DNA from: Pedobacter westerhofensis
Lineage (GTDB): Bacteria; Bacteroidota; Bacteroidia; Sphingobacteriales; Sphingobacteriaceae
Direction: 5' to 3'
DNA: 64,000 nucleotides
Assembly (NCBI RefSeq): GCF_900182595.1
Contig: NZ_FXTN01000007.1
Coordinates: 310,001-374,000, forward strand
Shown here: positions 44,621 through 59,741 of the stretch, piece after piece
Layout of the letters: each line of letters opens with the position of its first letter
Numbering within the stretch: position 1 is the first letter of the stretch
Program-made: the position numbers and the translations under genes
The notes under the pieces: model-generated
Database searches by the model: none
What the model was told of the DNA's origin: nothing
What the model saw: the letters and a program-made list of their open reading frames with translations, nothing else

Positions 44621-46768
44621 ATGCTAATGCAAAACTATGGCTTGCCGCTGATGGTCAGCCACATTAAAAAAATTACGATCATGGTATGTTTGCTCGGTAC
44701 TGCTTTCTGCACGCAGGCCGATGCACAGGAAAAGAAACCTAAAATCTCAAAAGATTCGGTAACCAACGATCTCGACGAAGTAAATATCAATTCGAACAAG
44801 CAGGGCAGGAGCACCCTCAAACTGAATGCTCCCTTAAAACAGATTCCTATCACTTTCAATTCAATCGGAAAAACTATCCTTGATGATCAGGGGGTAGATG
44901 ATTTTCAATCCGCACTCAAAAATGTCAGCGGTGTAAATCCGGTAGAAACTTACGGTGGTTTTCAGCAGTTTGTGATCAGGGGATTCACGGATTACCTGAT
45001 GCTGGTAGATGGCTTCAGGGATGAGCGCCAGAACATCTCACAGAGTGCACCGATAAGCAGCACGGCTTCTGTAGATCATATCGAAGTAGTAAAAGGCCCG
45101 GCATCAGTGCTGTTTGGGCATTCTGCACTGGGAGGGATCATCAATGTGATCAGAAAACAGCCTACCACAACTCCTACATACGATTTCTCCCTGGCCTATG
45201 GAAGTTACAATACCAGGAGGATGACGGCAGGTGCCGGAGGAGCCATTACCAGTAAACTGAGTTACCGTGCTGATTTCGGGATCTCTGATCAGGACGGATG
45301 GAGAAAGGCAGGATTTAGCAAAGCCAATGGTTACCTAGCATTAAATTACGCTTTAACTGCGAATGATCAGTTCCAGTTTCAGATCGGCGCTGCCAAAGAT
45401 GATTATCAGCTGGATGCGGGTATTCCTACGATCAATGGGGCAATTCCTGCAGGTGTTGCGCTTTCTACGCGTTACAATACGCCGCAGGACAGGATGACGT
45501 ACAGCCGCAACGATTTCCAGCTGAGGTACAACCACAGTTTTTCTGCGGATACCAAGCTGACGGAAACCATTGCCTATGCCAGTGATTCTTACCATTACTT
45601 TTCTTCAGAAACCTTGTACTTAAATACATCGCAGGATTCTGTAAACAGGGAGTTCTTTAACTTCAATACCAGTTTAAAGCCCCTCCAAAATACACTGGAA
45701 CTCAGTTCTGTGCTTAAAATAGGAGCGATTGAGCAGCGCTTTACTTTTGGGAACTCTTTAAATTACCTGAACTGGAAACAATTCAGGGATTCCGGACTGC
45801 CGCCTGTAACTACCGTTGGGCTGATCAATCCGGTAGAAACGCAGCCTAACATCGTGGTTACCAATGATACCCGGAGGATACTCAATGAGTTTTCAACTTC
45901 CTTCTATTTGCAGGACTGGATCAACTTTACTGCAAAGCTGAAAGCACTGGTAGGTTTGCGTTATGATTATTTTAAAGGAGAATACCGCACGGATAAGCTA
46001 ACAGGGAGCGACTTCCTAAAAGGTATCGCGACAGACAGAAAATCTGATGCGCTTACTTATCGGTTCGGACTGGTTTACGAGCCTGTTACTGCGGTAAGTA
46101 TCTATGGTTCGTATTCCAATTATTTTAAACCGGGGAGACAGCTTCCGGTAAATGATATTGTATTGAAACCAGAAACAGGGGCAATGGCCGAACTTGGTGT
46201 AAAGCTTCAGATCAATGACCAGCTGAGTTCTACTACCAGTGTATATCACATCAGAAAGTCTGATATTATCATTGGCAAGGGTGCGGGGGTATTTGAACAG
46301 GCAGGTAAAGCTGTTTCTAAAGGTATAGAAGAAGATTTGACCTATACGCCAAATGCCCATATATCTGTTACCGCCGGATATAGCTATACCGACGCGCGGT
46401 TTAAAGACTATGTGCAGTCTGCTACAGTGAATTTAAGTGGCAAGCGTTTATATTATGCTCCTGACCATCAGGCTAATCTCTGGGCAACTTACCGCTTTGC
46501 CAGACGGATTGAAGACAATGGTTTCAGGATTTCCGCAGGGGGTAACTTTACCGGCACCAGCTTCGCCGATAACGATAATGCAGTAAAGCTACCTGCATAT
46601 ACGGTGATCAATGCCGCTGTACATTATCAATTTAAACATGTGGATATCGGCTTAAACGTAAATAATGTGTTTAATAAAACGCAGTATTTTATTTCTGCTA
46701 TTAATGATAACCAGCTTTATCCAGGCAAGCCGGCTAATTACCTGGCTTCTTTAAGATATAAGTTTTAA
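44621..46768 (+). CDS. TonB-dependent receptor under cobalamin riboswitch
   Basis: A 715-residue outer-membrane receptor. The signal region ends TQADAQ. The plug domain (NAPLKQIPITFNSIGKTILDDQGVDD, VNPVETYGGFQQFVIRGFTDY, VEVVKGPASVLFGHSALGGIINVI-like segment) and a barrel ending YLASLRYKF are of the FhuA/FoxA siderophore-receptor type. The upstream cobalamin riboswitch indicates that the physiological cargo is B12, a corrinoid or a cobalt chelate rather than an iron siderophore. ATGs at 44621 and 44627 are both possible starts. The PepSY gene follows 50 bases later. Confidence 0.88.
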   Translation: MLMQNYGLPLMVSHIKKITIMVCLLGTAFCTQADAQEKKPKISKDSVTNDLDEVNINSNKQGRSTLKLNAPLKQIPITFNSIGKTILDDQGVDDFQSALKNVSGVNPVETYGGFQQFVIRGFTDYLMLVDGFRDERQNISQSAPISSTASVDHIEVVKGPASVLFGHSALGGIINVIRKQPTTTPTYDFSLAYGSYNTRRMTAGAGGAITSKLSYRADFGISDQDGWRKAGFSKANGYLALNYALTANDQFQFQIGAAKDDYQLDAGIPTINGAIPAGVALSTRYNTPQDRMTYSRNDFQLRYNHSFSADTKLTETIAYASDSYHYFSSETLYLNTSQDSVNREFFNFNTSLKPLQNTLELSSVLKIGAIEQRFTFGNSLNYLNWKQFRDSGLPPVTTVGLINPVETQPNIVVTNDTRRILNEFSTSFYLQDWINFTAKLKALVGLRYDYFKGEYRTDKLTGSDFLKGIATDRKSDALTYRFGLVYEPVTAVSIYGSYSNYFKPGRQLPVNDIVLKPETGAMAELGVKLQINDQLSSTTSVYHIRKSDIIIGKGAGVFEQAGKAVSKGIEEDLTYTPNAHISVTAGYSYTDARFKDYVQSATVNLSGKRLYYAPDHQANLWATYRFARRIEDNGFRISAGGNFTGTSFADNDNAVKLPAYTVINAAVHYQFKHVDIGLNVNNVFNKTQYFISAINDNQLYPGKPANYLASLRYKF

Positions 46769-46817
46769 TTACTCATTCCCCCGGGTGTTGATCCGCGGGG
46801 ATTTTCATTTTTTCATA

Positions 46818-48308
46818 ATGACGATAAAGAACCAAATTGTAAGACTGCACCGCTGGTTCGGACTGATTATGTGCGTGTTTTTTGCAGCCTGGTTTCTTTC
46901 AGGATTTGTGATGATGTATGTGGATTTTCCGCAGTACAGCAAGAAGCACCGTCTGGCGCATCTGGCGCGATTATCTTTAGGTGCATCTAAATATATACCT
47001 GCCCGATTGAGTTCTTCGCTGTCGCAGGATACATCCTGGAAACGGATCCGGCTAAATATGTTGCTGAACAGGCCAGTTCTGAGATTGGAAAATAACGAAG
47101 GGGAATTGTATTCGTTTTATGCAGATAATGGCAGCCCGGTTAAAATGTTATCAGCTGCACAGGCCAGTGCTATTGCGGTGAATTACCTTTCCGGAGGTTA
47201 TTCGCCTGTGCTTCTTGAAAAAATCACAGAGTTGGATCAGTGGATACCGCGTTCTGCATTTCTATTACATATGCCTGTTTACAGGATCAGGATGAATGAC
47301 CCTGCTGAAACGGTGACCTATATTTCATCCAAAAGCGGGGAGATCCTGCAGGTACATACGTTTTCGCAGCGGATACTGGCATGGTGCGGGCCGATTATCC
47401 ATTGGATCTATCCTAAGGAACTGATCCTGCGGAGGCCGTTGTGGAGGTTTGTGGTTATTCTTTTTTCTTCGCTGGGTATTTTTGCCAGTATTGCCGGGAT
47501 CGTTGTGGGGTTTATCAGGGTAAAGAAAAAGAAGAGGAGCTATACCAGTCCTTACCGCGAGAGATGGTTCAGGTGGCATCATTATACAGGTTTTATCTTT
47601 GGCCTGTTTACGTTCACCTGGGTGTTCAGCGGTTTGTTAACGATGTCTCCTTTTGACTGGAGCCCGGAAGTTGATATCACAGCTCGGGAGAATCGGTTAT
47701 TGCAAGGCGGTAACCTGATGGTCAGATCTTTTACCAAATTACCTGGTCAGGCATTTTCTGCTTTGAATGAAGGATTTTTGCCAGTTGAAATTGAACTGAA
47801 GCGCTTTCAGGGCAAGAGTTATTATATCGCTTATAATTCAAAAGGACAAACGCAGATTACCCTTGCAGAATTGTCTGGTTTAAAGGGAGGGAGGGCAGTG
47901 GCTCCTTTCCCGTATTTTTCGCAAGGGCTGATGATGCGTGCAATCCAGTTGGTTCATCCTGATGGTATTCCTTCCAAAGTCAATCTGATCCATCAGGAGG
48001 ATCATTACTATTATTCTAAACACAATGACAATGTTCTTCCTGTGCTGCGGGTACAATATAATGATGCGGAAAATACCTGGTATTACGCAGATCCTTCAAC
48101 GGGGTCAATTCTTTTGAAGAATACTTCTTCTGCAAGGATGAGCAGATGGCTGTATCATGGTTTGCATAGCCTTGATTTTTTTAATCTGCAGCATTACCGG
48201 CCGGTATGGGATGTGTTGATGATCATACTGTTAACAGGTGGAACTGCTGTAAGTCTAACAGGACTCCTCCTGGCTCTGAAATATCTTCGCAAAAAAGTAA
48301 AACTATAA
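46818..48308 (+). CDS. PepSY-associated TM-helix protein (reductase-like)
   Basis: A 496-residue inner-membrane protein. It begins RLHRWFGLIMCVFFAAWFLSGFVMMYVDFP (PepSY_TM helix with the paired HRWFG motif). It contains further membrane helices near 217-240 (WRFVVILFSSLGIFASIAGIVVGFI), 260-285 (WHHYTGFIFGLFTFTWVFSGLLTM) and at the C-terminus. Family members act as heme-binding reductases of imported metal complexes. Downstream of a B12-controlled receptor, it may reduce or process a corrinoid. The start at 46818 is preferred over a TTG at 46785. Confidence 0.85.
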   Translation: MTIKNQIVRLHRWFGLIMCVFFAAWFLSGFVMMYVDFPQYSKKHRLAHLARLSLGASKYIPARLSSSLSQDTSWKRIRLNMLLNRPVLRLENNEGELYSFYADNGSPVKMLSAAQASAIAVNYLSGGYSPVLLEKITELDQWIPRSAFLLHMPVYRIRMNDPAETVTYISSKSGEILQVHTFSQRILAWCGPIIHWIYPKELILRRPLWRFVVILFSSLGIFASIAGIVVGFIRVKKKKRSYTSPYRERWFRWHHYTGFIFGLFTFTWVFSGLLTMSPFDWSPEVDITARENRLLQGGNLMVRSFTKLPGQAFSALNEGFLPVEIELKRFQGKSYYIAYNSKGQTQITLAELSGLKGGRAVAPFPYFSQGLMMRAIQLVHPDGIPSKVNLIHQEDHYYYSKHNDNVLPVLRVQYNDAENTWYYADPSTGSILLKNTSSARMSRWLYHGLHSLDFFNLQHYRPVWDVLMIILLTGGTAVSLTGLLLALKYLRKKVKL

Positions 48309-48611: not shown

Positions 48612-49208
48612 ATGATGAATCATAAACTATATGATGTCCTTTTTGGTGTGAACAATTTGCCAGATGAATTAAAAGATGTAAAAAAGCGCGAAGCGCTCAT
48701 GGAAATTATTGACGAGAATCTGTTGCTGTCGAGACGTCATAAAAACGAACTGCTCCTCACTCCAGGGAATGTCTCAGATCAGATCTTTTTTCTGGAAAGT
48801 GGTGCCGCACGGGGATTTTTGTATGATGATATGGGAGACGAGAAACTATTATATATGTGGGATGAACATCAGGTGATTTGCGACTGCTCCAGCTATTTCT
48901 TTGCAAAACCAAGCAATATGTTTATTCAGCTGACGCAGGATAGTACGTTGCTGTCTTTAACGCGCAGTAATATCGCACAGATCACGGAAAAGTATCCGTA
49001 TGTGGAAATCGCTATTAATGTTATTTTATTGAATGATATAGAGTACAATCGTACAAGGGTAATTGATTTTATGACGCTGACGCCAGCGGCTAGGTATCAG
49101 AAGCTGCTGCAGATTATGCCGAAGGCGGATCAGAAGTTTTCACAGCGGGATATCGCATCTTATACTGGGACTACCAGGCAGACTATATATAGGTCTAAGA
49201 AAGCTTAG
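48612..49208 (+). CDS. Crp/Fnr-family transcriptional regulator
   Basis: A 198-residue regulator. The cNMP-binding-like domain contains LLLTPGNVSDQIFFLESGAARGFLYDD, and the C-terminal helix-turn-helix reads FSQRDIASYTGTTRQTIYRSKK. It ends directly after the recognition helix, so the HTH wing is short. A second ATG lies 3 bases in. It is followed by its own terminator and immediately precedes the AT-rich MauE gene cluster, but regulation of that cluster is not shown. Confidence 0.82.
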   Translation: MMNHKLYDVLFGVNNLPDELKDVKKREALMEIIDENLLLSRRHKNELLLTPGNVSDQIFFLESGAARGFLYDDMGDEKLLYMWDEHQVICDCSSYFFAKPSNMFIQLTQDSTLLSLTRSNIAQITEKYPYVEIAINVILLNDIEYNRTRVIDFMTLTPAARYQKLLQIMPKADQKFSQRDIASYTGTTRQTIYRSKKA

Positions 49209-49473: not shown

Positions 49474-49950
49474 ATGAAAACTATAAATATATTTCATCGC
49501 GTAAGGGCGTTTTTAGTTGACAGATTCACCTATATCAATCTAATCAGTTCTTTATATATCTTACTATTCATATACGCGGGTGCAATAAAGCTTTTTGATT
49601 TTAAAAATTTTAATCTACAACTGCAAAAGTCTCCGATTTTATCAAGTTTCGCTGACGTACTGTCTTTATTGATTCCTCTAGTTGAAATTGCTATATCAAT
49701 TTTACTTATAATTCCTGGCACACTAAAAATCGGGTTATATGCAGCTTTTACTCTAATGTCACTTTTTACTGTTTACATAATTTCAATTTTAAAATTTACC
49801 AGCTCAATACCTTGCAGTTGCGGAGGAATAATACAATCCTTGAGTTGGAACCAGCATTTAATATTTAACGGTGTATTTCTATTTATGGCAGTATTGGCAA
49901 TACAGTTGGAAGCTTATAGCAATCGAATTGATTTCCGAAGAAAAATATGA
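49474..49950 (+). CDS. MauE/DoxX-like redox membrane protein
   Basis: A 158-residue protein with four hydrophobic helices at about 21-40, 60-80, 87-107 and 129-146. The third and fourth flank a CSCGG motif (Cys114, Cys116) in SSIPCSCGGIIQSLSW. The MauE/DoxX group passes electrons or disulfides across the membrane to periplasmic partners. It is first of three plus-strand genes, followed 29 bases later by the 353-residue protein. The region is markedly A/T-rich compared with the genes to its left. Confidence 0.8.
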   Translation: MKTINIFHRVRAFLVDRFTYINLISSLYILLFIYAGAIKLFDFKNFNLQLQKSPILSSFADVLSLLIPLVEIAISILLIIPGTLKIGLYAAFTLMSLFTVYIISILKFTSSIPCSCGGIIQSLSWNQHLIFNGVFLFMAVLAIQLEAYSNRIDFRRKI

Positions 49951-49979
49951 TTTACAATAAAATATAAAATATTATCACT

Positions 49980-51041
49980 ATGAGAAGAAGTATGGTCGTT
50001 TTGTTAATAATATCATTTTGCTCTATTTTTATTTTCGCTTTTATTTTAATGAGTAGAGAGGATAAGAAAAAAAACGGATTTAGTAGAAAATTTATAGATT
50101 CAAACATTATCCTGGACAAGTATTACGAATTTAGTGATTATAATTTTGGGTTTCTTTCGGATCCTGATAATAATATCTGGATTTCAGATTTAACCAAAAG
50201 CTTCGTTGCAAAAAAGATAGACTATTCTCTTCAAAATATAAGAGACTTACATATAAATGTCCCGAAGGATTTTCCAATTGGTAATCGTCCCCTTGAAATG
50301 CATAGAATGGGTTCGACGATATTTAGTATTAATAAAACTGGTGATTTGGCTGTGATATTTAAAAATTCCAGTTTAATCTATAAGTTACCTCCGGTTTCAA
50401 TTCATGCGATTATACCTATTTCTAAAAATACAATAATTGGCAGCGTTTTTACAAATGCAAATGGCAAGTATAGTACAAAATTGATTAAAATAAAGTTATC
50501 GAAAAATTCCAGGATAATAAATGAATTCTCAATACCTAAACAGGTAGATGGATTATTTTGTTCGGATGGCAGTATGGAGTATGATATAAAACATTCCAAA
50601 ATATTTTACATGTTTTATAATCGTGGACAGTTTCTATGTTTAGATACAAATCTAAAAATTCTATACAAAGCAAACACAATTGATACGAATCGGCTAGCCA
50701 AAATTAAGATTATTACTAGACCATTTCGGTATAGTAGCGGAAAGATTAGCAACAAAACGTTTTTGGAGGCATCAAATCAGATTGTAAATAGATATCTAGT
50801 TACTGATTCTGCTAATGTATACGTTAATTCTAATTTAGTCGCAGACAACGAAAAGAAAGAAGATTTATGGAAATCTGATCCCATTGATGTGTACTCAATT
50901 TACAATGGTAGATACCTGTATAGTTTCTATGTTCCAAAATATAGGGGGTACAAAATTCGTCAATTTAAATTTAATAGAAATAAAATAGTCGCTTGCTACA
51001 GGAACTATCTTGTTGCTTTAATAATTAAGCGAAAAACTTAA
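49980..51041 (+). CDS. Membrane-anchored protein of unknown function (propeller-like)
   Basis: A 353-residue protein with one N-terminal membrane anchor (MRRSMVVLLIISFCSIFIFAFILM) and no lipobox, so the bulk should lie outside the inner membrane. The body shows repeated short-strand blocks (NNIWISDLTKSF, TIFSINKTGDLAVIF, HSKIFYMFYNRGQFLCLDTNLKILYK) resembling six-bladed propeller proteins found next to small secreted peptides in Bacteroidota. That likeness is an inference from pattern, not a match. Its coding DNA is very A/T-rich; the 60 bases from 50041 contain only 13 G or C. Confidence 0.7.
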   Translation: MRRSMVVLLIISFCSIFIFAFILMSREDKKKNGFSRKFIDSNIILDKYYEFSDYNFGFLSDPDNNIWISDLTKSFVAKKIDYSLQNIRDLHINVPKDFPIGNRPLEMHRMGSTIFSINKTGDLAVIFKNSSLIYKLPPVSIHAIIPISKNTIIGSVFTNANGKYSTKLIKIKLSKNSRIINEFSIPKQVDGLFCSDGSMEYDIKHSKIFYMFYNRGQFLCLDTNLKILYKANTIDTNRLAKIKIITRPFRYSSGKISNKTFLEASNQIVNRYLVTDSANVYVNSNLVADNEKKEDLWKSDPIDVYSIYNGRYLYSFYVPKYRGYKIRQFKFNRNKIVACYRNYLVALIIKRKT

Positions 51042-51172
51042 TGTCTGTATAAATAAGATGTAGTACGAAACTCATTCGTTTTACTACAATTTGTAAAATA
51101 TTCATTGGCCAATTGAATCAGGAGAAACCGAAAACCTGTAAGATAGTAGGTACTTAAACAAATATTATAATT

Positions 51173-51403
51173 ATGAAAAGAGTAATTTTTAGCGCTTTAT
51201 TAGCAACAGTTGCTATAGGCGGAGCAATCACATCTTATGCTCAACAATACCAATCGCCAACAAATAAGGTTTATACTTGCCCTGCTTCAACAGGTCCCTT
51301 ATGTATTAACATTCCTGAGAATATAAGACCAGTAGGTAGTAGTGGGTCTTACTTGCCACCTAGTTCCTATAATTTTGAAGAGGAACAATATACAGTTCAA
51401 TAA
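51173..51403 (+). CDS. Small secreted two-cysteine peptide
   Basis: A 76-residue product with a clear signal peptide (MKRVIFSALLATVAIGGAITSYA) and a mature peptide of about 53 residues. The mature part has exactly two cysteines, Cys36 and Cys44, in VYTCPASTGPLCINIPENI, then a Ser/Gly/Pro-rich stretch and an acidic tail NFEEEQYTVQ. Peptides of this shape recur in Bacteroidota beside MauE and propeller genes, but their job is unknown. It ends six bases before the stem of a bidirectional terminator shared with the convergent TlpA gene. Confidence 0.75.
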   Translation: MKRVIFSALLATVAIGGAITSYAQQYQSPTNKVYTCPASTGPLCINIPENIRPVGSSGSYLPPSSYNFEEEQYTVQ

Positions 51404-51408
51404 CATTC

Positions 51409-51442
51409 ATTGGGCCTAGTCGAGATATCGGCTAGGCCCAAT
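51409..51442. terminator. Bidirectional intrinsic terminator
   Basis: ATTGGGCCTAG (51409-51419) pairs perfectly with CTAGGCCCAAT (51432-51442). It lies between the convergent peptide gene and TlpA gene, ending each transcript. Confidence 0.78.
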
Positions 51443-51445
51443 TGT

Positions 51446-52987
51446 CTATTTGGAATAACTATGCTTTTCTGATAAAGCATTATCTATCAAAGCCAGTAAC
51501 TCTTTGGATTGAATATCTGTTTTTATTTGAGCGACAATTTTCCCTTCTTTGTCTACCAAAAGCATAAATGGCGCCCCATAAACTGCATAATATTTGAAAA
51601 ATGGGTGGTTAAATGATGAATATGGCAAATTTGAAACGTTGATGTAATCCTTAGAGGTATATAATTTACTATCTATACCACGTAGCCACCAATCTTTTGT
51701 TTTTCCATCATTTATTGACAGCATTTTAAAATCTTTTTTATTTTTAAGTATTGGCCATAATTCCTGTTCAAATTTAGCATGATACCCCGCACAAGCCGTG
51801 CATCCAACACCCCACATTTCAAGCAAAAAAACCTTTCCTTTCAATGAAGCGGTGGTGAATTTTTTGTCATCCAAGGTTATAAATTCCCCGTTATATAATG
51901 GTGCACCTTTTTTAAATTTCATCTTTTCGGAAATTATTAATCTTCCAATTCGCGATTGAAGGTATTTGCGTGCATCTGCTAATAGAGAGTCGCTAACTTC
52001 ATAAATATTCGAAAGACGTTCGGTTCCATATGTTCCCATAAATAGTTCAATAATCATTCGCTCTCTGATCTTTTGACTATATGTATTTGTTATAGCCTTA
52101 TAAAAACCTGCTAAGTCAATATTTCCCTCATTATTCAAAAATTCTTTAGTCTTGATGATTGAACTGATCCATTGGAAATAGTGAGGATTATAAAGAACTA
52201 TATCTTCAACTTTTACATCGATTACTTCTGATTCATATTGATTGAAATTTTCAATAATCCTTTTTTGAAGATTATGGAAACCACTACACTTTTTATAAGC
52301 TAATTCATGATAGCTGGCCCATAGTAAATTAAATTGAGTAGAATAGCTATATGTCAAAAGTTTATGTATTTGTGAGCTGGTTTTTGAAGATGAATTAATC
52401 GTGGTTTCGATTTTGTTAATGTACTGCTTTCTAAGCTGGTTGAAATTGTGCAGAAATGAATCTAGACTATCTAAGTTTTGACCAGGTTCTTTAGGAATAA
52501 GTGAAAAATAATGATAAAATATTCTATTTAAACTGAAGATGAGATTATATTTTTCAGCGCCCATACCCGAAAAACGAAGCGAATCTTCTTTCGCACCATA
52601 TAAAGACTCTATTTGTCGATCAAAGATATCAATATGTACTTTATCTGTGGGTTCGGCATAATAAGTACCCCAGCTTTTTGCCTCGCCCGATCCGTTCACT
52701 CCAGTATTTCTAATGGCCACCGGCTTAAATAATATTAATTTATTAGCTTTATTAAACTCAAAACTAAATTCGTGGTTAACATTCATTTTGATGATATTAC
52801 GGTCCGCCGGCTCCCAATAGTTAAGCTTGGAGACTACTGTAATCATAATGCTATCAGGTAGATTTTTCTTGGTATATTGGATCTTTCCAGTTAGAATAGG
52901 CTTGCCCATTAGATGTTCTTGAGCCGAGGCATTATTCATGAAGCAGATGTATATGATCGATAACAGGCTTATTAATAGAATTTTCAT
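51446..52987 (-). CDS. TlpA-family thiol-disulfide oxidoreductase with long N-terminal domain
   Basis: A 513-residue exported protein (signal MKILLISLLSIIYICFMNNASA). The first 370 residues are a helix-rich domain with a DUF4369-like beginning. The C-terminal thioredoxin domain has GKVFLLEMWGVGCTACAGYH with redox Cys396 and Cys399, and cis-proline in VYGAPFMLLVDKEG. It is the last gene of the SusC-SusD-TlpA unit, 66 bases after SusD. The CTAC active site differs from the usual CxPC. It probably works on periplasmic disulfides, possibly of the convergent peptide. Confidence 0.85.
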   Translation of the reverse strand: MKILLISLLSIIYICFMNNASAQEHLMGKPILTGKIQYTKKNLPDSIMITVVSKLNYWEPADRNIIKMNVNHEFSFEFNKANKLILFKPVAIRNTGVNGSGEAKSWGTYYAEPTDKVHIDIFDRQIESLYGAKEDSLRFSGMGAEKYNLIFSLNRIFYHYFSLIPKEPGQNLDSLDSFLHNFNQLRKQYINKIETTINSSSKTSSQIHKLLTYSYSTQFNLLWASYHELAYKKCSGFHNLQKRIIENFNQYESEVIDVKVEDIVLYNPHYFQWISSIIKTKEFLNNEGNIDLAGFYKAITNTYSQKIRERMIIELFMGTYGTERLSNIYEVSDSLLADARKYLQSRIGRLIISEKMKFKKGAPLYNGEFITLDDKKFTTASLKGKVFLLEMWGVGCTACAGYHAKFEQELWPILKNKKDFKMLSINDGKTKDWWLRGIDSKLYTSKDYINVSNLPYSSFNHPFFKYYAVYGAPFMLLVDKEGKIVAQIKTDIQSKELLALIDNALSEKHSYSK

Positions 52988-53053
52988 GATTGTGGTTTAT
53001 AAGGAAATTTGCTTGTCAAACATTTTATCAAATAATATTAAAAATTAAAAGAA

Positions 53054-54418
53054 TCAATAACCAGGATTTTGTATCATATTAGGATTACGACTCATCTCGT
53101 CATAGGGAATAGGATATAGTAAATCAGTCGATAGCCAAGTACTTTTGATTGCTCCTAAAACGACATTCGCTCTATTAGTCCTTTTAAGATCTAACCATCT
53201 ATGTCCCCATTCCGTGAAAAGCTCAGCCCTTCTCTCCTTGAGGATTAGATCCAACAAATCTGTTTTCGTGATAGTTGCATTGGTATTTTTCACCAACGTT
53301 ACTCCCGCCCTATTCCTTAGTTTATCAATATCGTCAATCGAGCCAGCCAAATTGTTTAATTGCGCCCTTGCTTCAGATCTAATCAAATACAGTTCTGCTA
53401 GTCTTAATACTGTTGAATATTCAGTAATAGTCGTCGATGATCTAATTTTATATTTAAAAGGATAATAATATGTAGTGGTAGCAATTGTCAAACTTTTCAA
53501 CCAATTGGATTTTCTTTTATCACCAAGCTCAAAAGCATCGTTTATAAGTCGATTATCTACAGCAACGTTAGTCGGTGAAGTTGTTAATATAAAGAATTGT
53601 CCTTCAGTAGTATTAGTATTGACAGGCGGAACTAGTTGCCATACTGCTTCTGAACTGTTTTTTAAAAAAACGTTTTCAAGATCAACGAGGGAATAAATGT
53701 TTCCTTTGTCAATTACAGCTGTAGCATACTTTTCTGCGTTAGTCCAGTCTTGAAGAAAAAGATAAGTTCTTGCCATCAATGCCTGTGCTGCTCCTAAATT
53801 TGGTCGAACTCTTTCGGTCGTAACATATTTGTCTGTTAATGACACTTCGGCAATTTTTAGATCAGCAACGATTTGTCGGTATACTTTATCGATACTTGAT
53901 CTTGGTAATGTTCTATTCTCTTTATAATCTGTGATGACCTGAACTGGTATCGATCCATATAAATTAACCAGGTAGAAATAACAGAATGCCCTAATGAAAT
54001 GTGCTTCGCCTTGTAGTTGTAATTTGACGGCCGGTGTTAAATTGTTAGATTTCTCTAATCCTTCAATAATAGAGTTTGCAGTATAGATATATGCATAATT
54101 ATCTAAAAATAATGTGTTGTTTGAGGTATTTAGATCGGTCAATTGATTGTCATAGAATGCTGCAACGCCCGGCCCACTGTTATAATTTGTTAATTCATCA
54201 GCAGAAAGGCCACATAGGTGATTAATGCTGTTTACTTCTTGAGTGGAAGACATTCTACTATAAATACCCCCGATAGCTGATATTGCTAGGTCATCATTTT
54301 GAAATAATGTTTCCTGTCCTAGGTAAGATACCGGGGGATTAATTTCTGTAAATTTCTTGCAGCTGAAATTCAAAACAGCGAAAATCAAAAAAATATATTT
54401 TATCAACTTCTTTTTCAT
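53054..54418 (-). CDS. SusD/RagB-family outer-membrane lipoprotein
   Basis: A 454-residue lipoprotein with leader MKKKLIKYIFLIFAVLNFSC (lipobox NFSC). It has the SusD hallmarks: an N-terminal SusD-like_3 helical part (EAHFIRAFCYFYLVNLYGSIPV), YLIRSEARAQLNN and ELFTEWGHRWLDLKRTNRANVVLG, ending LLYPIPYDEMSRNPNMIQNPGY. It binds the cargo that its partner SusC imports. The 8-base gap to the SusC stop shows they are one operon. Confidence 0.92.
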   Translation of the reverse strand: MKKKLIKYIFLIFAVLNFSCKKFTEINPPVSYLGQETLFQNDDLAISAIGGIYSRMSSTQEVNSINHLCGLSADELTNYNSGPGVAAFYDNQLTDLNTSNNTLFLDNYAYIYTANSIIEGLEKSNNLTPAVKLQLQGEAHFIRAFCYFYLVNLYGSIPVQVITDYKENRTLPRSSIDKVYRQIVADLKIAEVSLTDKYVTTERVRPNLGAAQALMARTYLFLQDWTNAEKYATAVIDKGNIYSLVDLENVFLKNSSEAVWQLVPPVNTNTTEGQFFILTTSPTNVAVDNRLINDAFELGDKRKSNWLKSLTIATTTYYYPFKYKIRSSTTITEYSTVLRLAELYLIRSEARAQLNNLAGSIDDIDKLRNRAGVTLVKNTNATITKTDLLDLILKERRAELFTEWGHRWLDLKRTNRANVVLGAIKSTWLSTDLLYPIPYDEMSRNPNMIQNPGY

Positions 54419-54427
54419 AATAATATT

Positions 54428-57400
54428 TTAAAGTGTAAGGTTTAACCCTAGTGTCATACTTCGTAACGGGGGCAAATAAGATATAGCTTGATTTTCAGGA
54501 TCTAATCCGATATAGTTTGTGTAAGTAAGCAGATTTTGTCCTTGTAAGGTAAATTTTGCATTACTTAAATTGATTCTTTGTAACCAGGCTTTTGGTACAT
54601 TATAAGATATCGAGACATTCTTTAACCTAACAAATGAGCTATTAGTAATAGATTCGCCTCCATTATCTCTAGCATTCGAATAGTTTGTATAATTTGATCC
54701 TAATGTTGCACTCACTTTTGGAATTGAACTTACATCTCCTATCTGCTGCCATCTTTGAAGTACTATTGTTGGGTAGTTACTTGTTGGAAGAGTACGTGAC
54801 AAATAACCTGGTAGTAGGCCGATGTTCATATAATTCAGGCTGGACCTTTGTTTTGTAAATGCAATAAGAAAATCTAAGCTTACGCTTTTGAAACTTATAC
54901 TATTTTGAAATCCTCCATAAAAGTATATTCCCGTAAATTTATTTAAATAGCGATCATTATTATTTATGATTCCATTGTTGTCATAATCTTCAATGTCGTA
55001 GAGGCCAGTCTGGCTATTTATTCCTCTAACATTATATATTCGTTTTGTTGATAGTGGCTTGCCCACGACATAATTATAAGCGTCACTAGAATTCTCAATA
55101 TCTGGATATGATATCAATTTATTCTTCGGTACCGTCATATTAATTCCTGTAAACCATTGCCAGGATTCCGAATTTATAAGTTTATAGTTTGTCTCCATTT
55201 CCCAACCAATGTTTTGAACAGTTGCTGGTCGGTTAGCTACGATGAGTGAATTCCCAGTGCTGGGAGGTAAAGGGTCACCAATGAGTTGATTAGACGACCT
55301 ATTTCTATACCATGAAATCTCTATGTTTAATCTGTTTTTTACAAAGCCAAGTTGTAATGCTGCTTCTAATTTACGGTTGGTTTCCCATGAGAAGTCTTTG
55401 TTACCCAAGTTATTAGGGATATTAGTAGGTAAACTTTGATAGATTTGGCCAGGTGCCCATAGTTGAAGATATTGATAGTCAGGTATTTGGTCATTTCCTG
55501 TTATTCCATAGCTACCTCTAAGTTTTCCGAAGCTTAAAAATGCAAAATGTTTTTTAAACATATTCTCCTCAGAAAATATCCAGGCAGCTCCGATGGCACC
55601 AAAGTTTGCAAAACGTTTATCATCGCCAAACCTACTTGAGCCATCTCTTCTAGCTGTAAGATTAAAAACATATTTATCATATAAATTATAATTGAATCTC
55701 GCAAAAACTGCAATATAACGATATTGTGCGGCGGATAATCTAGAAATTAAAGTCGAAGCTGAACTTATATTGTCCATTAAACCATCACTATTAAAACCGT
55801 TGGCAATTAAATTTCGTGATTCATTATTGTTACTTTGGATACTCATTCCAAGTAGAGTATCAAAGTTTCCTGGTCCAAATTTATTTTTGTACGTAAGTTG
55901 GGGTTCAACCATCAGAGTGTTATTGAATGTATTACTGAAAGTTGCCTCTCTCGCTGTGGCTGTTAAAGAAAGTGCCGGGGAAAAGCTTGACAACGGAACT
56001 ATGCTGTGATCATCGCGTTTTATCATGTTATATCCTATAGAAGCTTTCAAAAATAAATGATTTAGAAGTCTATATTTTAAGGCAATGTTGGCAATGAGGT
56101 TATCGGATCCACTATTAGCCAATTTTTGTAAGCTAGCAAGTGGATTGACAAATAGAGTATTGTTACTCCAATTTAATTGTCCATCTTTATCTAACAAATC
56201 TGGATAATTTGGAGGAAGATATATGTTATAAGTAATGTCTTCCTTCATTAAACTACTTTGGACATGATTATAGTTGGCAATAAAGCTTATATTTAATCTG
56301 TCCTTTTCTGTTCCAACATTTAAACTGGAAGTCATTCCACCACGCTTATAGCCAAAATTACCCGGAAATACAGAGCCCTCTTGATAATAATTTGCACCTA
56401 AGAGGTAATTGATTTTGTCACTTCCCCCACTAATATTTAAAGATGAAGTTGTAGTGTTTGCTGTGCGACCGATTAGCTCTTTTTGCCAATCTGTATATTT
56501 GCTTTGGTCGTAATTGCCATTTATGTCATTTTGATTTATATAGGTAGGAGAACTTGTTGTTAGTTTACCATTTATGAAGTATGCTTCCTTACGTAATTCT
56601 AAGTACTGTTGCGTGTTTAAAAGATCTAGTCTCTTATCAACTTGGCTGATTCCCTGATTGATTGAAGCATTGATTCTTAATGAGCCAATACTACCCCTTT
56701 TCGTTTTTATTAATATGACACCATTTGCTCCCCTTGATCCGTATATTGAAGTAGCATCTGCATCTTTAAGTATTTCTATACTTTCGATGTCATTTGGATT
56801 TACCATACTTAATGGACTAGCTCCATCTAGTCCAAGTATTGGTAATGAAGGTGAAACTTTATTAGAAGGATAAACTACTCCATCAATGATATAAAGTGGA
56901 TCGTTTCCAACAGCCGTGTTGATGCTATTCCTTCCTCGAATTTGTACTGATACGCCACCACCTGGCATTCCTGTTTGCTGAGTGATCAATAACCCCGGAA
57001 CTCGATTTTGTAAAGCAAGTACTGGGTTGTTAACTGGTTGTTGAGCAATAGTTTCCGATGTGACCCTCGAAATATTTCCTGTTCGATTTTTATTACTTAC
57101 AGTATAATACCCTGCATTGACAGTGACTTCATCGAGATCACTGTTAAGAATTTCCATTGAGATTGTTTCCAGTTGTGATAATGCAGTAACTTCTCGTGTT
57201 TTGTAACCCAAATAAGAGATAATTAAAATGACGTTTTCTTCTACATTATTTAAATAGAACTCTCCCTCACTATTAGACAAAACGGATTTACCCGTTCCTT
57301 TAACTTTAATTGTAGCTCCTGCTAATCCATTCCCATTCTCATCTACAACTCTTCCTCGTACATCAATTGACTGAAAATAAGCGATCACCTTTTCAACTAT

Positions 57401-57769
57401 CGATTTCTCTGAACTCGGTTTAATCAAAACCGTATTATCTTCAATCTCAAAAGAAAGCTGTTTTCCCTGCAGAGTTTTTGAGATAACTTCAGACAGTGGA
57501 GTTTTGGAAAACTTCGCATCGAGGGTGGTTGAACCTTTTAGCTGATCTGATTTCCAAACAACGGTATATCCTGTTTGCTTATATACTTCATCAAAAAGCT
57601 CGGATATCGTTATGTTTTTCTTTGACAGGGTAACCTGCTGTGCAAACGAAGTTGCACTAACCTGCATTATGGTTGCTATTAATAACATGATCGTTAGTTT
57701 CATGACCAGCAAGGTTTTGTGTATGCAGCGCGGAGGCTTGCATAAAAAATTTGTAGAAATTTTATACAT
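54428..57769 (-). CDS. SusC/RagA-family TonB-dependent receptor with STN domain
   Basis: A 1113-residue outer-membrane receptor. A leader (ending VSATSFA) is followed by the STN secretin/TonB domain (VTLSKKNITISELFDEVYKQTGY, 46-110) for sigma/anti-sigma signalling. A carboxypeptidase-regulatory domain (DVRGRVVDENGNGLAGATIKV) and the SusC plug (GVSVQIRGRNSINTAVGNDPLYIIDGV; IESIEILKDADATSIYGSRGANGVILI) follow. The barrel ends SMTLGLNLTL. The STN domain agrees with the adjacent FecR and ECF sigma genes. The cargo is unknown. Confidence 0.95.
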   Translation of the reverse strand: MYKISTNFLCKPPRCIHKTLLVMKLTIMLLIATIMQVSATSFAQQVTLSKKNITISELFDEVYKQTGYTVVWKSDQLKGSTTLDAKFSKTPLSEVISKTLQGKQLSFEIEDNTVLIKPSSEKSIVEKVIAYFQSIDVRGRVVDENGNGLAGATIKVKGTGKSVLSNSEGEFYLNNVEENVILIISYLGYKTREVTALSQLETISMEILNSDLDEVTVNAGYYTVSNKNRTGNISRVTSETIAQQPVNNPVLALQNRVPGLLITQQTGMPGGGVSVQIRGRNSINTAVGNDPLYIIDGVVYPSNKVSPSLPILGLDGASPLSMVNPNDIESIEILKDADATSIYGSRGANGVILIKTKRGSIGSLRINASINQGISQVDKRLDLLNTQQYLELRKEAYFINGKLTTSSPTYINQNDINGNYDQSKYTDWQKELIGRTANTTTSSLNISGGSDKINYLLGANYYQEGSVFPGNFGYKRGGMTSSLNVGTEKDRLNISFIANYNHVQSSLMKEDITYNIYLPPNYPDLLDKDGQLNWSNNTLFVNPLASLQKLANSGSDNLIANIALKYRLLNHLFLKASIGYNMIKRDDHSIVPLSSFSPALSLTATAREATFSNTFNNTLMVEPQLTYKNKFGPGNFDTLLGMSIQSNNNESRNLIANGFNSDGLMDNISSASTLISRLSAAQYRYIAVFARFNYNLYDKYVFNLTARRDGSSRFGDDKRFANFGAIGAAWIFSEENMFKKHFAFLSFGKLRGSYGITGNDQIPDYQYLQLWAPGQIYQSLPTNIPNNLGNKDFSWETNRKLEAALQLGFVKNRLNIEISWYRNRSSNQLIGDPLPPSTGNSLIVANRPATVQNIGWEMETNYKLINSESWQWFTGINMTVPKNKLISYPDIENSSDAYNYVVGKPLSTKRIYNVRGINSQTGLYDIEDYDNNGIINNNDRYLNKFTGIYFYGGFQNSISFKSVSLDFLIAFTKQRSSLNYMNIGLLPGYLSRTLPTSNYPTIVLQRWQQIGDVSSIPKVSATLGSNYTNYSNARDNGGESITNSSFVRLKNVSISYNVPKAWLQRINLSNAKFTLQGQNLLTYTNYIGLDPENQAISYLPPLRSMTLGLNLTL

Positions 57770-57901
57770 TAGTGGTGTGTTTGGTTTGTGGTTGATTTAT
57801 GGTGTTTACTAGGCACTTGTCATTAAGCGAATTCAAACATCTTACAGAGCTCCGATTGCCGTCGGGGCTTTGTTTTTTGTATCTGGTTCGCCTGGATATT
57901 T

Positions 57902-59026
57902 CTACTCTTTTACGATAATCCTCCTTCCTTCAATTTTAAAGTGAACAGATCCAACGATTTCTAATTTTTTCAAGACTTTGCTTATTGTTGTGAATTTTGA
58001 GATGGAGCCACTAAACTTCTGATCTTTCAGAGACTCCTTGTCATAATAGACACTTACATTGTACCATCGCGCTACCTTCACCAGTATACTTTCCAGTCTT
58101 TCGTCATTAAACTTGAAAAGATTATCCTTCCACGCTACGGCTACACCAGAAGCAGCTTTCTGCACGAGAAATGAATTACCAGATAGCACAGTTTCTTCTC
58201 CAGGTTTCAGCAGGAGATCCGCAGTGCCTTTGGCTGCAGCAGAGTGGACCTTAACAGATCCTTCAAGCAAAGTAGTTTTCGTTTCAGCGTCATCAGCATA
58301 GTTACTGATATTGAAATGGGTACCCAATACAGTCACAGATTGAGATGAACTTTTAACCACAAAAGGATGAGCTTTATCTTTAGTAACTTCAAAGTAGGCT
58401 TCGCCGCTCAGTTCAACGTTTCGAGTGACATCAAAAGTTGTTGGAAATGATAGGGTTGAAGCGGCGTTAAGCCATACCTTTGAGCCATCCGGCAAAAGCA
58501 CAATATATTGTCCTCCTTTGGGAGTTTCTATGGTATTATAAGCATCTCTTTTCGAAGAACGTGATGATGAACCTTCCTCCATCTTAAAGACTAACTGACC
58601 ATCGCTGCTCTTGGTGATCTGTAGGCCAGATTCTACAACCAATTGCCCATTTTTTGCATCAGTCAGATTTATCTTTTTTCCGCTTGCGAGCGTCAAAATC
58701 GCCATGTTACCACCTGGGTTAATATCCTGGCGCAGGTTCTTGTTTAAAAGATATAGCCCCGCCAGACAGATTGCAAGAGATGCAGCATAACCAAGCCATC
58801 TGTATTTTTTATATATAGAAACACGTTTTGTTTTGACAGGAAGTTGAGTAGACAGGATCAGTTCACGGCCAGCCTCATGAGAAATGAAAACACTCTCATC
58901 GATAGGAGTGCCAACATTTTTTCGTGCTTCCACATTGAACCACTCTTCCAGGAAGTTTACTTCTTCAGGAGTACATTCCCCATCCTGGTATTTTTGGATC
59001 AACGCAATTACTTCTTCTTTTTTCAT
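57902..59026 (-). CDS. FecR-family anti-sigma factor
   Basis: A 374-residue membrane protein with cytoplasmic N-terminal helices (MKKEEVIALIQKYQDGECTPEEVNFLEEWF) and one transmembrane helix (YRWLGYAASLAICLAGLYLL). The periplasmic FecR domain has YNTIETPKGGQYIVLLPDGSKVWLNAASTLSFP and FVVKSSSQSVTVLGTHFNISNY. A C-terminal STN-like DUF4974 domain ends GRRIIVKE. It transmits the STN signal of the receptor to the sigma factor. The ATG at 59026 is preferred over 59035. Confidence 0.92.
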   Translation of the reverse strand: MKKEEVIALIQKYQDGECTPEEVNFLEEWFNVEARKNVGTPIDESVFISHEAGRELILSTQLPVKTKRVSIYKKYRWLGYAASLAICLAGLYLLNKNLRQDINPGGNMAILTLASGKKINLTDAKNGQLVVESGLQITKSSDGQLVFKMEEGSSSRSSKRDAYNTIETPKGGQYIVLLPDGSKVWLNAASTLSFPTTFDVTRNVELSGEAYFEVTKDKAHPFVVKSSSQSVTVLGTHFNISNYADDAETKTTLLEGSVKVHSAAAKGTADLLLKPGEETVLSGNSFLVQKAASGVAVAWKDNLFKFNDERLESILVKVARWYNVSVYYDKESLKDQKFSGSISKFTTISKVLKKLEIVGSVHFKIEGRRIIVKE

Positions 59027-59132
59027 TATAAACATGTAAAGGTTTACAATATAGAATCAGCTCAACTGGTAACATCCATCATAGGGAAATCAAAGAAAAT
59101 TACAAATACTTCTTAAATCACTGATTATCAGT

Positions 59133-59741
59133 CTAAAAAATACATTTGTATTGCAGTAAATGTAGAGCTATAAGGAGTAGGGAGTTTTGGATCTCTTTAT
59201 TATTGCGAAGTACAAAGAGAGCGCGTTGGATCTGGGTACTTACGGTATTTTCCGTAAGGCTTAACAATTCTGCAATTTCTTTATGAGACAGATGTTGCTT
59301 ACGACTCAGATTAAAGATTTCACGCATGCGTGGTTGCATACTCTGAACAGTGGCTTCGATAATTTCGGCCAGTTCTTTCAGGTGCACATCCTGATCTGCC
59401 TGATTGTAACTTTCTGAGGCAAAATTGGCTATGGATTCTAAATAATTCGTTTTAGTTTGCTCGTGCTTAATAGCATTGAAAACTTTGAACCTGACTGCTC
59501 TGTAAAGGTAGTTGGCCAAATGTTCTGAGGAATTGATCTCCAGGCTCTGCGCACGTTGAAATACAACGGTAAAAACTTCCTGAACAATATCCTGGGCTAT
59601 ATCCTGATCCTTTACCATGCTGTTGACGAACACCACAAGGGGAGTCCTGTGCCTGTCATATATTTTTCCGAAGGCATTTACGTTGCCCGACTTAAAAAGG
59701 TCGAATAACTGGAGATCTGAGAGAGAATTTAAATCAGCCAT
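59133..59741 (-). CDS. ECF-subfamily RNA polymerase sigma factor
   Basis: A 202-residue sigma-70 factor of the FecI-like Bacteroidota group. Region 2 reads SLSDLQLFDLFKSGNVNAFGKIYDRHRTPLVVFVNSMVKDQDIAQDIVQEVF. Region 4 contains MREIFNLSRKQHLSHKEIAELLSLTENTVSTQIQRAL. It likely directs transcription of the SusC-SusD-TlpA operon and is held by the adjacent FecR protein. Its gene precedes fecR by 106 bases. Confidence 0.93.
   Translation of the reverse strand: MADLNSLSDLQLFDLFKSGNVNAFGKIYDRHRTPLVVFVNSMVKDQDIAQDIVQEVFTVVFQRAQSLEINSSEHLANYLYRAVRFKVFNAIKHEQTKTNYLESIANFASESYNQADQDVHLKELAEIIEATVQSMQPRMREIFNLSRKQHLSHKEIAELLSLTENTVSTQIQRALFVLRNNKEIQNSLLLIALHLLQYKCIF

Follow-up and report, generated by a model that had tools for sequence, protein, structure and literature searches.

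Our study concerns a gene cluster in a 64,000-nucleotide stretch of DNA from Pedobacter westerhofensis, hereafter the window (contig NZ_FXTN01000007.1, positions 310,001 to 374,000), which belongs to a genome of 6.35 Mb. Here a trio of forward-strand genes, encoding a MauE-type membrane protein, an anchored propeller protein and a secreted peptide with two cysteines, lies head-on to a reverse-strand TlpA-SusD-SusC operon under a FecR/ECF pair. All eight genes named in a preliminary description of this DNA are present at their positions in the open reading frame (ORF) list of the window, and the locus is made up as follows (aa, amino acids):

49474-49950, + strand: MauE-type membrane protein, 158 aa, with a CxC in PCSCGG (PF07291, 1.5e-31); putative disulfide-forming partner
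49980-51041, + strand: membrane-anchored beta-propeller of the six-bladed type, 353 aa, fold taken from a modelled fused homologue; putative periplasmic docking platform
51173-51403, + strand: secreted peptide precursor, 76 aa, with a Sec-like leader and C-x7-C; an outlier related to DUF6520-matching peptides
51409-51442, no strand assigned: terminator-like hairpin between the convergent units (15 pairs, -27.6 kcal/mol, z -7.8)
51446-52987, - strand: TlpA-like thioredoxin-fold protein, 513 aa, CTAC motif (by eye)
53054-54418, - strand: SusD lid lipoprotein (PF07980, 99.5 bits against a cut-off of 23.1), placed in the SusD tree discussed below
54428-57769, - strand: SusC/RagA TonB-dependent transporter with an STN-like N-terminus (TIGR04056, 672 bits against 368)
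57902-59035, - strand: FecR-type anti-sigma factor (PF04773, 69.7 bits against 24)
59133-59741, - strand: ECF sigma factor (TIGR02985, 130.2 bits against 126.4)
48612-49208, + strand: CRP-like regulator upstream of the trio, of doubtful membership; genes like it are found close to the trio in 4 of 20 neighbourhoods (L029, L037, L040 and L044; loci are given by such numbers throughout)

The membrane protein, described beforehand as a CxC redox protein, is a clear member of the MauE family (109.8 bits for PF07291, cut-off 27), and C114 and C116 are found, together with K39, E71 and N132, among the columns that are invariant in an alignment of 24 homologues. The 76-residue peptide has exactly two cysteines, as had been stated, at C36 and C44 behind a Sec-like leader whose cleavage is placed by eye after SYA at residue 23; it has no match in Pfam (E 0.1) and nothing credible in NCBIfam. 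For the operon, described as TlpA-SusD-STN-SusC under ECF/FecR control, the assignments of SusD, SusC and the adjacent FecR and ECF genes hold above curated cut-offs, while the STN match on SusC (24.5 bits, Pfam cut-off 28.4) and the Redoxin and ResA matches of the TlpA-like ORF (3.9e-4 and 2.5e-5) fall below them; the TlpA-like ORF also matches thiol-disulfide oxidoreductase chains in the PDB from 4.9e-6. The unit is AT-rich, with a G+C fraction (GC) of 0.29-0.36 across 49 to 57 kb of the window, but the stretch is not confined to the trio, because the low GC runs over the SusCD operon too. The transfer that had been suggested from base composition does not generalize: modules average 2 points of GC above their flanks and lie below them in only 31 of 99 cases, and since most are not poorer in GC than their surroundings, composition is at most a hint on the window locus alone.

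The same arrangement recurs across the Bacteroidota. Homologues of the 353-aa protein occur in 18 of 201 genomes, P. westerhofensis included, and neighbourhoods were fetched for 20 of their 22 non-self places, all in the same family. MauE lies beside the propeller gene or is fused to it in 20/20 (fused in two), and SusC and SusD are found within about 6 kb in 19/20, the single miss (L045) being at a contig end. These 20 loci were joined by 20 hand-picked from MauE and PF20130 matches and by the 80 best MauE matches of a wide scan, in which eight MauE proteins were compared with named genomes and the best 80 of 585 relatives were taken; these 80 include genomes of Flavobacterium, Aequorivita, Lutibacter, Galbibacter, Chryseobacterium, Epilithonimonas, Pedobacter, Chitinophaga and Dyadobacter and one of the Cyclobacteriaceae. 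MauE with a detected peptide was found at 110 loci, 107 of them distinct by MauE (L029/L114, L064/L120 and L121/L133 are identical pairs), the named ones among them spanning five Bacteroidota families. The entries L049-L051 and L054 are copies of longer loci; they count towards the 125 sites given to the peptide detector but not towards the 110. Co-occurrence of the trio with SusCD had been set beforehand as a test of the preliminary description, and it was borne out: SusD lies within 8 kb of MauE and the peptide in 101/110 loci, convergent and downstream in 97, and a thioredoxin-like or S9 partner accompanies it in 90 of the 101. SusD genes were counted in the genomes of 31 loci (the higher candidate counts being used where counts were lower bounds), and SusD was seen at 30 of these loci, compared with 6.15 expected from genome SusD density; the corresponding P of 6.5e-22 assumes independent loci, and these are related to one another and not randomly drawn. 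With MauE in 20/20, SusC and SusD in 19/20 and SusD at 30/31 loci against some 6.2 expected, the gene neighbourhood is not a product of chance.

The genome that carries the window has four further solo MauE genes (L055-L058), head-on to SusD-SusC and without a propeller. An intact two-cysteine peptide is present at three of these, and that of L055 looks frame-broken and was left out of the cysteine counts below. A fifth MauE gene (L059) has neither SusD nor a detected peptide within 8 kb. Elsewhere, a Pedobacter contig (L076:3062-5448) carries three tandem MauE genes followed by one peptide gene. Most MauE matches of the scan from which loci were hand-picked sit in longer ORFs of other make (416 aa in L074), which were examined for a few picked cases, and we therefore make no claim on MauE in general. 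The DUF6520 profile PF20130 proved a poor survey probe, with matches in 5/149 class genomes; no MauE was matched close to the two weak partial hits that were fetched (L072 and L073).

A small Sec-type peptide with a cysteine pair adjoins the trio in 20/20 of the family neighbourhoods, 19 found by a detector for a basic start, a hydrophobic core and C-x3..9-C, and one (L036) by eye. The detector was positive at 116/125 MauE sites compared with 22/250 control windows. The number of cysteines after residue 20 in the 116 distinct peptides is four (82 peptides), two (31) or six (3) and never odd, whereas background ORFs picked up by this detector elsewhere in these loci, to which the demand for a cysteine pair applies equally, have 47 even and 36 odd counts. 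Two ORFs had been removed by hand before this count, L130 with five cysteines and L153 with four, the latter above the 110-aa limit. The even counts support disulfides well, in agreement with the peptide disulfide foreseen in the preliminary description, and it is very probable, judging from these sequences, that the peptide is exported with its disulfides formed. The spacing of the first pair ranges from 2 to 11 among the counted peptides. In 58 four-cysteine peptides only the start methionine and the four cysteines are invariant, G41 and L89 nearly so, and the model of a Flavobacterium peptide has a small four-stranded mature domain (pLDDT, the model's per-residue confidence, 86-89 for the block of residues 41-90) with an unsettled leader. 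Three of ten linked module peptides that were scanned exceed the DUF6520 cut-off; the window peptide was also considered as a plain member of DUF6520 or NVEALA and rejected as such, as neither profile matches it.

The leader of the precursor is conserved and its mature part is not. Leader identity exceeds mature identity both at the four-cysteine loci (n=54; 0.41 versus 0.28) and at the two-cysteine loci (n=19; 0.41 versus 0.18), and SusD gives the reverse in both sets (0.22 versus 0.48 and 0.32 versus 0.40). The peptide is the fastest-diverging member of the module in every distance class except the smallest (7 pairs). This contrast resembles the pattern of precursor peptides, and the mature part appears to be under diversifying or relaxed pressure. 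The same pattern, the several paralogues in some genomes and the peptidase or reductase in the operon could be accounted for by a bacteriocin-like weapon, a hypervariable peptide that attacks relatives through their SusCD while the producer is shielded, either by the propeller or because the peptide is degraded as it is taken up. Such a weapon would endanger its own producer, as the supposed receptor is kept beside the peptide gene; moreover, the leader looks Sec-like by eye and not of the double-glycine kind, and neither an immunity gene nor an ABC exporter is found among the nine window proteins, so that we hold this explanation to be improbable.

MauE and the propeller are fused in 60 of the 110 loci and separate in 41, and no propeller was found in the remaining 9. 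The preliminary description of the 353-aa protein as anchored and propeller-like is borne out: by eye there is one hydrophobic N-terminal segment, and the propeller fold is seen in the model of a fused homologue. The protein itself has no Pfam match. It has no credible NCBIfam match either, and a propeller profile returned nothing up to E 1 from the PDB sequences. The model of the fused Flavobacterium MauE-propeller (mean pLDDT 86.8) has four helices in its MauE part, followed by a fifth that also spans the membrane and by the propeller, for which the best solved fold is the DUF4221 protein 3s9j (Z 19.4, root-mean-square deviation 3.8 over 295, identity 8%); further solved matches are to six-bladed propellers of the NHL and Pizza types. 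Counting the membrane helices in this model would place the CxC loop and the propeller on the same side of the membrane. The propeller is patchily distributed, in 6/149 class genomes and 22/198 phylum genomes; eight of these 22 lie outside the class, seven of them with weak matches. No homologues of the 353-aa protein were found in the plasmid records searched. In one relative (L048:7613-10096, + strand), the propeller of an 828-aa protein follows a RamC_N domain, a LanL/LanKC-like kinase and a single membrane helix, standing in the place taken by the cyclase in a lanthipeptide synthetase; preceded by the kinase and one membrane helix, this propeller would again be placed across the membrane.

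Distances between the peptides track those between the propellers most closely (r 0.75; 0.54 when SusC and SusD are controlled for), compared with 0.60-0.62 for SusCD before control, in a Mantel set of 85 of the 93 propeller-bearing loci, thinned by SusD distance. As this covariation is the strongest, we take the peptide's direct partner to be the propeller, bearing in mind that neighbouring genes also have a common history. A role of MauE as the oxidase of the peptide is probable, the even cysteine counts of the linked peptides being indirect evidence for it, and whether the propeller serves as its docking partner we would put at about even. The same tie to the propeller, the fusion of MauE and propeller in 60/110 loci and the thioredoxin-like partner in 29/101 would also suit a peptide that stays in the cell, either as a small disulfide-bearing subunit of a MauE-propeller complex or as a shuttle that carries thiols from MauE to the TlpA-like protein or back, with SusCD as a client that handles other cargo. 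A shuttle should keep its redox motif, whereas the first pair of cysteines is 2 to 11 residues apart and their number is 2, 4 or 6; the mature part is hypervariable, a peptidase replaces the thioredoxin in 61/101 loci, and a peptide and SusCD occur at L233 with no MauE nearby. We consider such a periplasmic accessory unlikely.

In the 101 SusCD operons the partner gene encodes an S9 peptidase in 61, a thioredoxin-like protein in 29, neither in 11 and both in none. These calls come from family models built, like some others used in the analysis, from the loci themselves, and the Pfam identity was checked for nine of the partner proteins. Either partner would suit a disulfide-bearing peptide that needs to be opened or cut. 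The preliminary description had further proposed sensing through STN-SusC, FecR and ECF; an ECF/FecR pair is indeed present in a subset of loci that includes the window, but sensing of this kind is not universal and was rejected as the core of the system. An STN segment resembling that of the window was found in 17/101 loci, a lower bound, as the search was made by similarity to the window's own segment. FecR occurs anywhere in the fetched stretch in 27/101 loci, but 64 of the 101 stretches end less than 1.6 kb past SusC, so that the informative count is the 15 of 37 sufficiently long stretches in which FecR lies directly beyond SusC.

This regulation bears on a further explanation, in which the secreted peptide would carry a metal and return through SusCD in the manner of methanobactin; were this the case, the system would become a variant of an already known kind. 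In its favour, the window encodes a self-made peptide, a TonB-dependent transporter, an ECF sigma factor and FecR. The even cysteine counts, however, point to disulfides rather than to free thiol ligands, FecR lies beyond SusC in just 15/37 loci, no mature residue besides the four cysteines is invariant in the 58 four-cysteine peptides, and the Pfam scan of the nine window proteins found no methanobactin-type maturation enzyme. A metal-carrying role of this type seems improbable.

A tree of SusD proteins was built from 55 of 100 module SusDs and 25 others from the genome of the window; its bootstrap was not fully settled. The 55 module SusDs fall into two groups, 45 with 4 outsiders and 10 with 3 outsiders. 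TlpA-like partners, and no trio, accompany the 4 outsiders of the first group. The outsiders of the second group, all from the genome of the window, differ among themselves: L233:12112-12600 (- strand) is a two-cysteine peptide gene that is convergent with TlpA-SusD-SusC and has no match to MauE anywhere in the 20 kb around it, L232 has leaderless cysteine-pair peptides with glycosyltransferases, and L231 has a Met-zincin and neither peptide nor MauE match. Outsiders such as L233 suggest that the link between peptide and SusCD may reach beyond MauE. The related peptide-less SusCD operons in the same genome, the neighbouring SusCD type with a Met-zincin protease (L231) and the reported implication of RagAB in protein uptake could all speak for a different function. 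Here SusCD, with TlpA, S9 or metalloprotease, would feed the cell on foreign disulfide peptides, and the linked trio would help, say by inducing the system or by competing with the cargo. Such an importer leaves unexplained why a peptide and a probable oxidase are encoded convergently with SusCD in 97/110 loci, as well as the leader/mature pattern, and we rate it as quite unlikely.

Some further arrangements were noted around these operons. Five distinct leaderless peptides of 84-95 aa with C-x6-C-A, one of them carrying a third cysteine, are encoded in the genome of the window on contig 18 (L232:2851-12796 and L059:13-2083), where their neighbours are SusD-SusC, a gene for a thioredoxin-FKBP protein and glycosyltransferase-like genes, of which one was confirmed as a family 2 member. 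Another pairing of a peptidase with SusCD is seen at L226:6842-9427 and L231:7076-9610, where the operons include a protein of 844-861 aa that is a Met-zincin (DUF4953/5117/5118) in L231 and looks alike by eye in L226. Just upstream of the cluster, at 44621-48308 of the window, a TonB-dependent receptor is followed by a membrane ORF of PepSY-type appearance (both by eye), possibly an iron-uptake pair.

The most economical reading of these loci, which we favour tentatively and hold to be a little short of an even chance, is a private peptide system, in which a self-made disulfide peptide has an oxidase complex of its own and, in the outer membrane, its own receptor or importer. In this model the precursor would be exported by Sec and its conserved leader cut off; on the periplasmic side of the inner membrane, the propeller would hold the peptide beside MauE, whose CxC loop would pass on oxidizing power and close the disulfide or disulfides. 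The stapled, fast-diverging peptide would then act in or beyond the outer membrane as a ligand or cargo of the SusCD encoded head-on to it; that SusCD binds or imports the peptide is an attractive idea, for which we would give slightly less than even chances. On entry the peptide may be opened by the TlpA-like thiol protein, in the window and others, or cut by the S9 peptidase, mostly in the Flavobacteriia, and in a subset of loci, the window included, the ECF/FecR pair would tune the SusCD operon. Outside the cell the peptide may be a signal, a means of kin recognition or tag, or a carrier of metal or other cargo.

Several observations weigh against this private system. Once MauE and the propeller are controlled for, the peptide does not clearly covary any further with SusC (0.066, p 0.06) or with SusD (0.059, p 0.07). 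The four nearest SusDs from the genome of the window (L223-L226) have TlpA-like partners, with no MauE or detected peptide alongside. Nine of the 110 loci have no SusD within 8 kb; three of these lie at contig ends (L045, L076 and L093) and three, from Flavobacterium (L100, L101 and L110), have a short opposite-strand ORF with GHSFGGYE that we read as an S9 remnant, but in L067, L107 and L129 neither a contig end nor a remnant accounts for the absence. No peptide was detected at seven further MauE loci (L036, L055, L059, L070, L071, L105 and L151), although L036 has one by eye and L055 the frame-broken one; the L036 peptide, missed by the detector, has five cysteines after residue 20, an odd number. 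In L100, L101 and L110 the SusCD operon appears by eye to have decayed while MauE-propeller and peptide are intact.

None of the known systems we considered has all of its own defining features at these loci, and the one whose logic comes closest is methanobactin. It re-enters the cell by way of a TonB transporter that ECF/FecR controls, and it is made with MbnB/MbnC-type maturation enzymes encoded beside the peptide. The module likewise combines a secreted peptide with a TonB transporter of its own and with ECF/FecR, but differs in its disulfides, its SusD lid and a FecR that is not universal; no MbnB/MbnC-type or thioamide/oxazolone enzymes were found by Pfam among the nine window proteins. 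In methylamine utilization MauE is credited with a disulfide-related role within the mau system, and the module protein shares with it the build of a multi-helix membrane protein with a CxC; here, however, it is linked or fused to a propeller and a hypervariable peptide, and no dehydrogenase subunits were seen. The methylamine dehydrogenase small subunit has invariant tryptophans. An enzyme of this type, made of a propeller, a small disulfide subunit and MauE, was considered and rejected for want of an invariant tryptophan in the peptides, only 53/116 of which have one after residue 22, the window peptide having none. The full-length SusC/RagA and SusD of the window, both above cut-offs, are those of SusCD/RagAB systems, but the module locus encodes a secreted peptide and a probable oxidase in place of glycan enzymes. 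The modelled propeller has its closest solved fold in DUF4221 (Z 19.4) at an identity of only 8%.

The peptides themselves resemble two families. Those of DUF6520 (PF20130) are likewise short Sec-type Bacteroidota peptides, and 3/10 module peptides exceed the family cut-off, but the window peptide does not match and Pfam gives the family no function. NVEALA peptides (PF14055, in gut-type Bacteroidota) are also small, secreted and cysteine-bearing, and lie beside lipoproteins that look propeller-like by eye; unlike the module, their loci (L166-L169) have no match to module MauE or SusCD, two contain signal-peptidase-like genes (by eye), and the profile has no match in the window peptide or in the genome of the window. 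By eye, L166 and L167 hold arrays of such peptides, L166 and L169 the signal-peptidase-like genes, and thioredoxin-like genes also lie near NVEALA peptides; this is possibly a parallel system. Double-glycine bacteriocins such as the bacteroidetocin-like ones combine a GG leader with a peptidase-ABC exporter, whereas the leader here is Sec-like by eye and no ABC exporter occurs among the nine window proteins, in which Pfam and NCBIfam also found no LanM/LanKC/LanL lanthipeptide synthetase with a cyclase.

No description of such a system was found in the open-licence literature, by titles and the openings of abstracts, and nothing there was found to name NVEALA or DUF6520. As a recurrent system the combination is thus apparently undescribed, while its enzyme and transporter families are already known. 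A broader version of the private system, which we regard as rather unlikely, would have a wide set of such channels, with several hypervariable stapled peptides per genome, each matured by MauE or MauE-propeller and provided with its own SusCD, serving as signals or kin tags; the peptide-less SusCDs of the same groups, as in the genome of the window, would be listeners for, or scavengers of, the peptides of other cells. SusCD pairs are known as nutrient importers. If the proposed private peptide system is correct, part of the large SusCD repertoire of the Bacteroidota would serve self-made peptides, as signals, tags or carriers, and a role would be suggested for many solo MauE proteins and DUF6520-like peptides. 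Even if the peptide proves to be periplasmic, these loci would define a dedicated disulfide-forming module with a small and clear candidate substrate.

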